Shown piece after piece: positions 36,981-41,932 of a stretch of DNA of 64,000 bases (position 1 is the first letter of the stretch; each line of letters opens with the position of its first letter). Source of the stretch: Acidobacteriaceae bacterium (lineage in GTDB: Bacteria > Acidobacteriota > Terriglobia > Terriglobales > Acidobacteriaceae). The notes beneath the pieces were generated by a model. That model was given only the letters and a program-made list of their open reading frames with translations, did no database searches and had not been told where the DNA came from. The translations under genes and the position numbers were made by a program. The DNA is taken from assembly GCA_027307045.1 (NCBI GenBank), contig DAHUXR010000005.1:1-64000 (forward strand), written 5' to 3'.

Positions 36981-37925
36981 ATGGAAACGGAAACCAACGG
37001 GAACTCGTCTACTCGCATCCTGAAACAAATTTTTTATAACGACCGGGGCCTACGCGCTGGTTGGCGGCTGCTGATCTATGTTGGGATGATTCTTGCCCTC
37101 GGCTTAGGAGCACGCCTAATTACGAGACGCGCGGCTTCGGGCGCAAGGAACGCGCCATCATCTGATTTCGCTCGCGCGATCTTAGAGGCAATCGGCGAAC
37201 TGATTTTATTTCTCGTGCTTTTGTTCCTGGCATGGATCATGAGCAAGATTGAACGCCGTAAAGTAGGCGAATATGGCCTGCCTTTGCAACGATCGGCCGT
37301 TGCGGGTTTTATTCGAGGATATTTCTTGTGGGGATTCCTGCCTCTCGCTATTTTGCTGTCGATTCTGCGGATACTGCATGGTTTTTATTTTGGCGATGTG
37401 AGTCCTCTAAATTCCCAGATACTCGGCTGGGCCGTCGTCTGGTTTCTTTTCTTTTTGCTGGTGGGGCTTTTTGAAGAGTACTCACTTCGCGGCTATCTGC
37501 TTTACACTCTCGCGGATGGCATTGGCTTCTGGCCTGCCGCCATTATCCAGGCGATATTGTTCGCCCGAGCGCACATGGGCAATGGCGGTGAAACAAGAAT
37601 TGGAATTATCGCTACGGGGGTCTTTGCCATGTTTGCAGCGGCCACGCTTTGGCGTACCGGAAATCTATGGCTTGCCGTGGGTGCTCACGCTGGCTGGGAC
37701 TGGGGACAGTCATTTTTCTTTGGCGTGAATGACAGTGGTGTTCAGATGCCCGGCCACCTTTTCAATCCCCGTCCGACTCAGGGGCCTGACTGGCTCACCG
37801 GCGGCAGCGTGGGACCTGAAGGTAGTGTAGTGACGCTGATCCTGTGGGTGCTTATGGCGGTTCTCTTTCTTTGGCTTCACCGCAAGCGGCATGAGCCGGC
37901 ACTGGTGATAACAATGGAGAGATGA
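36981..37925 (+). CDS. CPBP-family intramembrane metalloprotease (Abi/CAAX protease-like)
   Basis: FEEYSLRGYLLYTL (EExxxR), ILFARAHMGNGG, LWLAVGAHAGWDWGQSFFFG motifs. Confidence 0.92.
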   Translation: METETNGNSSTRILKQIFYNDRGLRAGWRLLIYVGMILALGLGARLITRRAASGARNAPSSDFARAILEAIGELILFLVLLFLAWIMSKIERRKVGEYGLPLQRSAVAGFIRGYFLWGFLPLAILLSILRILHGFYFGDVSPLNSQILGWAVVWFLFFLLVGLFEEYSLRGYLLYTLADGIGFWPAAIIQAILFARAHMGNGGETRIGIIATGVFAMFAAATLWRTGNLWLAVGAHAGWDWGQSFFFGVNDSGVQMPGHLFNPRPTQGPDWLTGGSVGPEGSVVTLILWVLMAVLFLWLHRKRHEPALVITMER

Positions 37926-37938
37926 TTAGCTGCGAGCT

Positions 37939-39123
37939 CTACTGCCCCGGTCCGCCATACCTTACGGCGCCGAATCCCGTGTGATTGAGAATGTCATAGT
38001 AGTTCACCTTGGTGGCGCCAGTGGATTGCAGGTCACGGTAGAAGCAGAGCCATGCTGCGGCGTCCACATCGCACAGCGTCTCCATTCGCGCAGCGCCGGT
38101 ATTCGACGGAAATTGTCCCGTGCCCATCTGCGTCTTCGGCGGGATTCCGTTATCTGACGCCACCTCTCCGTACCACTGGATCTGTGCTGTTTTGGTGAAC
38201 TGTCCGTTCCATTCCGTGTCTTTGAAGTATCCCAGCCACTGATCGTTGAACCAACCCCACCAGGCGTTCTCAAAATGCACCCAGCCGATATATACGTCTG
38301 CCCCCACGAGCGCAGAGAGGTCCATGTAAGGAGAATATGTGCTGCTGTACTGGTTCCAGCCACATAGATCTCCGCTGTGGCTGTAGCAGGTTTCGCCGCC
38401 GTTGATCCAGTGATAGACAAACAGATGTGGGTGGCTGTCGCCGAACTGGTCCTGGGAGACGCTGAACCCCATCTCAACGTCGTCGAGACTTCCGCCTGCG
38501 GAGCCCGCTCCCATCACAGCTATTTCACCGATGGAGTGTCCGTCACCGCCGGTATTAACTACTGTCGGGTTCTCAATGGTGTAGGTCATGCCGCCACCAT
38601 CGGCCACGCGCTGCTCTGACGCGCTTCCGTAATAAAAGCAGCTGGAAAACCAAGGCACACCATCACACGGTGGATCGTCGGCGCCACTAGGCGAATTCTC
38701 TCGAGGCTGCGTGTACCGTCTTTCACGTTTCCAATAAACCTGATCAAACGGAAGCAGCAGATGATTAACCAGATCGCGCGGCAGCGGATGTGCCGGACCT
38801 GGGGCTGCGTAGCTGCCGAGCATTGGATTGCCTTTGATGAAATGCCGCTTTTCCGGCTCGCCCGTTATGGGAACTTCACCTTCAGGACAGACCGGCTTCA
38901 GTTTTCGCGCCGGGCGGATCTCCTGTTCTTTTCCTCTGTACGGCCGTAAGCTGGGAAGTACCGCGCGTGGCGGTTTTAGATCAGCTTCGCGTTTAACGCA
39001 CTTTACCCGCTCCTGCTCCGTTTGTGACTGAGCAGGTTTTGCGGTCAAAAGAATGATGGTGCATGACACGAGAGCGTTGAGAAAACAGAACAGCTTTCTA
39101 CTCTGCATGGCGGCTTTCTCCAT
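37939..39123 (-). CDS. Secreted neprosin-like protein (putative glutamic endopeptidase, G3-like)
   Basis: Signal peptide, Pro/Lys-rich pro-region, then a neprosin-like C-terminal domain: DDVEMGFSVSQDQFGDSHPHLFVYHWINGGETCYSHSGDLCGW...VHFENAWWGWFNDQWLGYF...AQIQWYGEVAS. Confidence 0.7.
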   Translation of the reverse strand: MEKAAMQSRKLFCFLNALVSCTIILLTAKPAQSQTEQERVKCVKREADLKPPRAVLPSLRPYRGKEQEIRPARKLKPVCPEGEVPITGEPEKRHFIKGNPMLGSYAAPGPAHPLPRDLVNHLLLPFDQVYWKRERRYTQPRENSPSGADDPPCDGVPWFSSCFYYGSASEQRVADGGGMTYTIENPTVVNTGGDGHSIGEIAVMGAGSAGGSLDDVEMGFSVSQDQFGDSHPHLFVYHWINGGETCYSHSGDLCGWNQYSSTYSPYMDLSALVGADVYIGWVHFENAWWGWFNDQWLGYFKDTEWNGQFTKTAQIQWYGEVASDNGIPPKTQMGTGQFPSNTGAARMETLCDVDAAAWLCFYRDLQSTGATKVNYYDILNHTGFGAVRYGGPGQ

Positions 39124-39280
39124 GGACTTAGATTCAGCGATTCACGAGGGAAAGCGCAGGGCAATCCGAACGCAATTTTCTATGTGAAATGCCTGCATGA
39201 GTAGTGTTCCCAAAGCGCAATTCATTACAAGAAAATTTGCCGTCTGTGGAAAGATTTCCCCTCGACCTTGAGGTGACAGA

Positions 39281-41932
<2,652 letters not shown>

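Follow-up and report, generated by a model that had tools for sequence, protein, structure and literature searches.

Neprosin is a protein-cutting enzyme of pitcher plants and one of the glutamic peptidases, a catalytic class that, to our knowledge, has received less study than most. Whether a bacterial protein of this kind works as neprosin does is the question raised by a 394-codon open reading frame (ORF; positions 37939-39123, minus strand) in the 64,000-nucleotide stretch of Acidobacteriaceae DNA analysed here, which we call the window. A sequence-only reading had recognized in this ORF a secreted neprosin-like glutamic peptidase and had quoted three motifs, DDVEMGFSVSQDQFGDSHPHLFVYHW, FENAWWGWFNDQWLGYF and IQWYGEVAS, all of which are indeed present.

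The gene and its family

Judged from its sequence, the ORF is a real gene. Homologues are found in other Acidobacteriota at 70-76% identity and, when close relatives are compared over the catalytic domain, third codon positions show about 2.5-5 times more differences than first and second positions (we give differences by codon position alone, because dS is saturated); the homologues, the codon-position pattern and the profile match described below rule out a chance ORF or an artefact. The reading frame proposed earlier stands, but its start probably lies 15 bases further downstream. A Shine-Dalgarno-like GGAG, with which the first ATG (39123) overlaps, is found 9 nt before the second ATG at 39108 (GGAGAAAGCCGCC-ATG), and the start of the relative L001 has the same layout (GGAGGCCGCCA-ATG). 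Because the GGAG spacing matches that of L001, the ATG at 39108 is probably the true start, giving a protein of 389 amino acids with MQSRKLF at its N-terminus. Residue numbers throughout are counted from the ATG at 39123, as in the earlier reading. The main features are:

37939..39108, minus strand: coding sequence of a neprosin-family secreted protein (start from the GGAG and the match to the L001 start, family from PF03080)
39022..39108, minus strand: putative signal peptide, residues 6-34, MQSRKLFCFLNALVSCTIILLTAKPAQSQ (read from the sequence)
38671..39021, minus strand: basic pro-domain and linker, residues 35-151 (from pI, faster evolution and the structural model)
37942..38670, minus strand: neprosin-type catalytic domain, residues 152-394 (from PF03080, AlphaFold and Foldseek)

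The putative signal peptide has, by eye, a basic N-end, a hydrophobic core and A-Q-S before the break, and equivalent signal sequences are present in L001 and two further relatives, L002 and L003. We rejected a lipoprotein (LVSC, residues 17-20), since this motif lies inside the hydrophobic stretch and the relatives do not have it.

The family, assigned by eye in the earlier reading, was correct: none of the three outcomes named there as refuting it (no PF03080 match, no neprosin fold in structure prediction, glutamates that do not align with the catalytic pair) was obtained. The PF03080 (Neprosin) model aligned nearly end to end (positions 4-214 of 214) with residues 196-392 at E=7.5e-17 and 61.8 bits, against a cut-off of 22 bits, and was the only family returned by a Pfam scan of the protein. 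Sequence searches of the PDB found neprosin at 3.7e-7 with the single window protein, at 5.5e-14 with a five-member profile and at 1.7e-27 with a 15-member clade profile; nothing but neprosin matched either profile. NCBIfam and PADLOC scans, searches of viral contigs and phages, and Rfam, promoter and terminator scans gave nothing useful, while a viral fold library returned mostly weak jelly-roll matches, with a strawberry mottle virus polyprotein at rank 12.

AlphaFold2 models, for which alignments of gathered homologue sequences served as input, were of moderate confidence (pLDDT 70-73): pLDDT was 70.5 and pTM 0.77 for the zymogen (residues 35-394), and 73.0 and 0.77, respectively, for the catalytic domain (residues 149-394). 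With both models the five best Foldseek matches in the PDB were all neprosin (7zvb, 7zvc, 7zu8, 7zva, 9qr8), which points to the neprosin beta-sandwich as the predicted fold. Neprosin was matched at E=7e-14 (TM 0.74 on target) by the zymogen model and at E=6e-12 (TM 0.68-0.75) by the catalytic-domain model, with the next fold at 5e-5 and 2e-5, respectively; these second-rank matches, GH16 glucanases and galectins, were 6-8 orders of magnitude weaker. Because the profile, the fold and the catalytic dyad (below) agree, we conclude that the window protein belongs to the neprosin family (PF03080; MEROPS G3), and this conclusion is unaffected by the two missing active-site residues described below. 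Eqolisins (SCP-B, 1s2b; MEROPS G1) are acid glutamic peptidases too and show a distant beta-sandwich likeness (E=1.3e-4), but they, including the bacterial glutamic peptidase (PMC3009609), have a Glu-Gln dyad and no detected sequence similarity to the window protein. An eqolisin identity was rejected, since both dyad positions of the window protein are Glu and SCP-B is only a weak fold match.

Conserved catalytic residues and replaced cleft residues

The comparison covered 31 catalytic domains, of which 25 are of the window type and six canonical, these last being plant neprosin and five bacterial neprosins (L010 and L026-L029). The plant sequence was taken from printed alignments, and its numbering agrees with 22 of 23 published residues, the exception being position 206, Tyr in PMC9343461 and Phe in the chain. 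The sequence-only reading had noted candidates for both essential glutamates, and they do align with the catalytic pair: MAFFT, hhalign, the PDB profile search and a canonical-only HMM agree that E217 is E188 and E320 is E297. The register was the same when the clade profile was aligned by hhalign to the canonical one (prob 99.8%, E=4e-28), and again when the PDB chain was searched with the clade HMM and the window protein with the canonical-only HMM. Counterparts of E188, E297, Y136 and Y220 are invariant in all 25 clade members and all six canonical domains. A phmmer alignment in which Tyr136 appeared to be lost was rejected, as the multiple alignment and hhalign both give Tyr165, invariant in every domain.

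38473..38475, minus strand: Glu217, counterpart of catalytic Glu188 (invariant in 31/31 aligned domains)
38164..38166, minus strand: Glu320, counterpart of catalytic Glu297 (invariant in 31/31)
38629..38631, minus strand: Tyr165, counterpart of neprosin Tyr136, which positions E297 and binds substrate (invariant in 31/31)

A maximum-likelihood tree of the 31 domains separated the window-type from the canonical group with support 100/100. The window-type members, whose catalytic domains diverge to about 30% identity, come from Acidobacteriota (four proteins), a Methylococcaceae bin (one, at 50% identity) and, in large part, Catenulispora and other Actinomycetes, with one member on a Streptantibioticus megaplasmid. 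Of the 205 columns without gaps, 19 show no variation within either group. At 16 of these the two groups have the same residue, and the other three are clean switches: F169 to H196, Q173 to E200 and T210 to W239. These switches, and the second residue of the oxyanion hole, are located as follows:

38536..38538, minus strand: His196, at neprosin Phe169 of the S3 subsite (His in 25/25 of the clade)
38524..38526, minus strand: Glu200, at neprosin Gln173 of the oxyanion hole (all 25 clade members have Glu, all six canonical domains Gln)
38518..38520, minus strand: Ala202, at neprosin Trp175 of the oxyanion hole (all 25 clade members have Ala or Ser, all six canonical domains Trp)
38407..38409, minus strand: Trp239, at neprosin Thr210 (all 25 clade members have Trp, all six canonical domains Thr)

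Elsewhere in the clade, Y194 is replaced by Ser, Ala or Asp (Ser in the window protein), Y214 is absent, and H134 is Phe or Tyr (Phe163 in the window protein), with Y136 kept; the S1 residues L171 (Ile/Leu) and Y208 (Tyr/Phe) are also kept. Altogether, nine positions invariant in the canonical group are fully replaced in the clade, and five of these nine belong to the set of 16 residues that the structural study (PMC9343461) lists for the cleft (hypergeometric p=1.6e-4, a value that ignores the shared ancestry of the sequences). The window protein has about 22% identity to the Nepenthes enzyme (7zu8, 7zva, 7zvb, 7zvc; PF03080 and PF14365) and a first hairpin shorter by 3 residues; the beta-sandwich, both glutamates and both tyrosines are common to the two.

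Canonical bacterial neprosins are, like the window protein, bacterial, secreted members of PF03080 with a Glu dyad. Unlike it, L010 and L026-L029 keep nearly all of the residues in question, F169, Q173, W175, Y194 and Y214 among them, as well as H134 in four of the five. The existence of these proteins makes the replacements a property of the clade rather than a bacterial one; on this comparison of sequences, the window protein is not a canonical neprosin. Neither Q173 nor W175 is present in any of the 25 clade members. In plant neprosin both residues are proposed to form the oxyanion hole, and Q173A and W175A are totally inactive, while H134A, Y136A and Y214A each lose about 80% of activity (PMC9343461). 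The clade, therefore, would seem either to have rebuilt its active site or to have lost peptidase activity, and the invariant dyad favours a rebuilt site.

Pro-domain, proposed mechanism and alternatives

The sequence-only reading had also proposed a propeptide. In its favour, the pI of the pro-domain is 9.55 versus 4.33 for the catalytic domain, and identity to L001 is 63% in the pro-domain versus 82% in the catalytic domain, indicating faster evolution of the former. Plant neprosin, also a secreted zymogen with a basic pro-domain and an acidic catalytic domain, has pI values of 9.5 and 4.3, on which its acid-switch model rests (PMC9343461). The basic/acidic split is also present in L001, L002 and L003; the pro-domain of another relative, L012, has a pI of 5.67, and in Catenulispora members the pro-domain is missing altogether. 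What the proposal did not gain was a family match: Neprosin_AP (PF14365) does not match the pro-domains of the window protein, L001 or L003, though it matches those of the canonical L010, L026 and L027. Pro-domain profiles aligned over the CPxGxVPI motif only (CPxGx(I/V)PI when the plant enzyme is included), and a search of the PDB with the pro-domain profile gave nothing useful. In the AlphaFold2 model residues about 44-88 are confident and residues about 94-148 disordered. Two features of the pro-domain have putative counterparts in neprosin:

38866..38889, minus strand: CPEGEVPI motif, residues 79-86 (counterpart of CPKGSIPI of the neprosin pro-domain)
38833..38835, minus strand: Lys97 of KGNP, candidate counterpart of the neprosin Lys118 plug

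KGNP is invariant in all five pro-domain-bearing relatives, and its lysine, 17-18 residues after the Cys (20 for K118 of neprosin), could plug the cleft as K118 does.

We consider it likely that the window protein is the zymogen of a glutamic endopeptidase, secreted, activated by acid and belonging to a divergent bacterial clade of the neprosin family, its activity being a prediction. The family, predicted fold, aligned dyad, pI split and coordinated replacement of cleft residues are results of the analysis, and the following steps would build on them. After Sec export, the basic pro-domain would clamp the acidic catalytic domain by charge, with Lys97 of KGNP plugging the cleft; at acid pH the pro-domain would be released and then cut off. 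By homology, Glu320 would act as the base that activates water, and Glu217, protonated, as the acid that holds the scissile carbonyl. A rebuilt oxyanion hole may consist of Glu200, which would be protonated at acid pH, together with His196 and perhaps Trp239.

The main rival, given the loss of two residues essential in the plant enzyme, is that catalysis has been lost and the neprosin fold now serves as a secreted binding protein or inhibitor. Besides the replaced oxyanion hole, this reading can draw on the second-rank fold matches, since the fold is common to lectins and beta-glucanases, and on the bacterial Ig-like repeats at the C-terminus of L012. We find it doubtful, however. The two glutamates and the counterparts of Tyr136 and Tyr220 do not vary in any of the three phyla, although most of the domain has diverged to about 30% identity; the substitutes are fixed to single residues (His, Glu, Trp) rather than drifting; zymogen-type electrostatics of the pro-domain are kept in four of five cases; and the GH16 and galectin matches fall 6-8 orders of magnitude below neprosin.

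Still less probable, in our view, is an ordinary neprosin-like prolyl endopeptidase with plant chemistry and post-proline specificity, to which the cleft changes would be neutral. The fold and dyad are the same, the S1 residues L171 and Y208 are kept, and 'neprosin family prolyl endopeptidase' is the name that bacterial PF03080 proteins have in RefSeq (for example, WP_041558016.1 on Novosphingobium plasmids). Q173 and W175, however, neither of which neprosin can exchange for alanine and stay active, have given way to other residues throughout the clade, which makes it less likely that the protein works exactly like neprosin, and canonical bacterial neprosins retain the residues in question, so that the change is specific to the clade. 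The post-proline cleavage suggested earlier is not supported as stated: with F169, Q192 and Y194 of S3 and W175 of S3' all changed, and Y214 gone, proline specificity should not be assumed, and the substrate preference is probably different from that of neprosin. A Glu-dependent hydrolase acting on glycosylated protein rather than plain peptides, like HC7 of Bacillus cereus, a di-glutamate mucinase (PMC13003899), is highly improbable: HC7 (8pn3), also bacterial, with di-glutamate catalysis and a loosely similar beta-sandwich, is among the fold matches of the catalytic domain (E=9.6e-5, TMq 0.51), but this match is far weaker than that of neprosin and no better than those of GH16 enzymes, HC7 was not matched in the PDB sequence searches and has no sequence similarity to the window protein, and it is glycan-dependent and carries a carbohydrate-binding module, which the window protein lacks.

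Returning to the acid-activated glutamic endopeptidase, we tentatively suggest, at somewhat less than even chances, that the clade may represent a second catalytic design in the neprosin fold, in which the dyad is kept and an invariant His196-Glu200 pair, with Trp239, replaces the Gln/Trp hole.

Genomic setting, distribution and significance

The window covers an origin region (dnaA, dnaN, gyrB, gyrA, yidC), in which the neprosin gene is flanked by gyrB and a gene for a CAAX-protease (Rce1-like). The interval between them (36981-39281) is a variable slot in the genus: the flanking genes are kept in same-genus relatives, and the slot is empty in L044, L045 and L049 (61-201 bp). In two others it is occupied by genes unrelated to neprosin: by eye, L043, which is closely related (PMT 94% and gyrB 98% identical), has one that encodes a short protein like a zinc ribbon, and L048 has one resembling DUF4349 proteins. 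The closest homologues are at unrelated loci, and the neprosin family is rare, being found in 2 of 150 relatives, in 1 of the 396 genomes sampled across the phylum and, by protein, in 3 of 300 in the bacterial family, all counts including the window's own genome. The neprosin gene is a lineage-specific insertion. Its GC (0.560) and GC3 (0.625) are like those of its neighbours, and gain by horizontal transfer, either old or from a source too similar to stand out, fits the data. Contamination was ruled out, as gyrB and the CAAX-protease gene flank the neprosin gene directly and the contig also has gyrA, dnaN, dnaA and yidC.

Several other loci add to the picture of the family. L010 (1480-2847; genome G070) is a canonical neprosin with QxW, both glutamates and a Neprosin_AP match; its genus is a different one from that of the window but belongs to the same bacterial family, which thus has neprosins of both types. 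In L012 (979-2853) a window-type neprosin is followed in the same ORF by the Ig-like repeats, which suggests a cell-surface form. At Catenulispora loci (L004, L007 and others) window-type neprosins that lack a pro-domain stand in tandem pairs, and some of these genomes have a third copy at another place. On the conjugative plasmid Lpl of Novosphingobium sp. PP1Y (L054, 80244-81497), a bacterial neprosin lies near an IS21 transposase; such a plasmid is a plausible vehicle for the spread of neprosins.

Bacterial neprosins are not new: they are already annotated in RefSeq, and DUF239 has been described as a plant and bacterial family (PMC4768671). Neprosin orthologues have, however, been called plant-restricted, and Gln173 and Trp175 indispensable (PMC9343461); the window protein and its relatives contradict the stated plant restriction. 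A literature search of papers outside subscription returned no description of the active-site variant, no paper joining neprosin with Acidobacteria and none using the RefSeq product name; the altered active site thus looks undescribed.

With 25 proteins from three phyla that keep the Glu pair and have neither Gln173 nor Trp175, the clade is a natural experiment on these two residues. If its members are inactive, they form a clean loss-of-function branch. If they are active, the mechanism of neprosin needs revision, and soil bacteria are a new source of acid proteases; a second design, if true, would mean an active site of three glutamates, distinct in pH profile and in substrate specificity. 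In bacteria, then, this rare class of enzymes may exist in a version that is wired differently.
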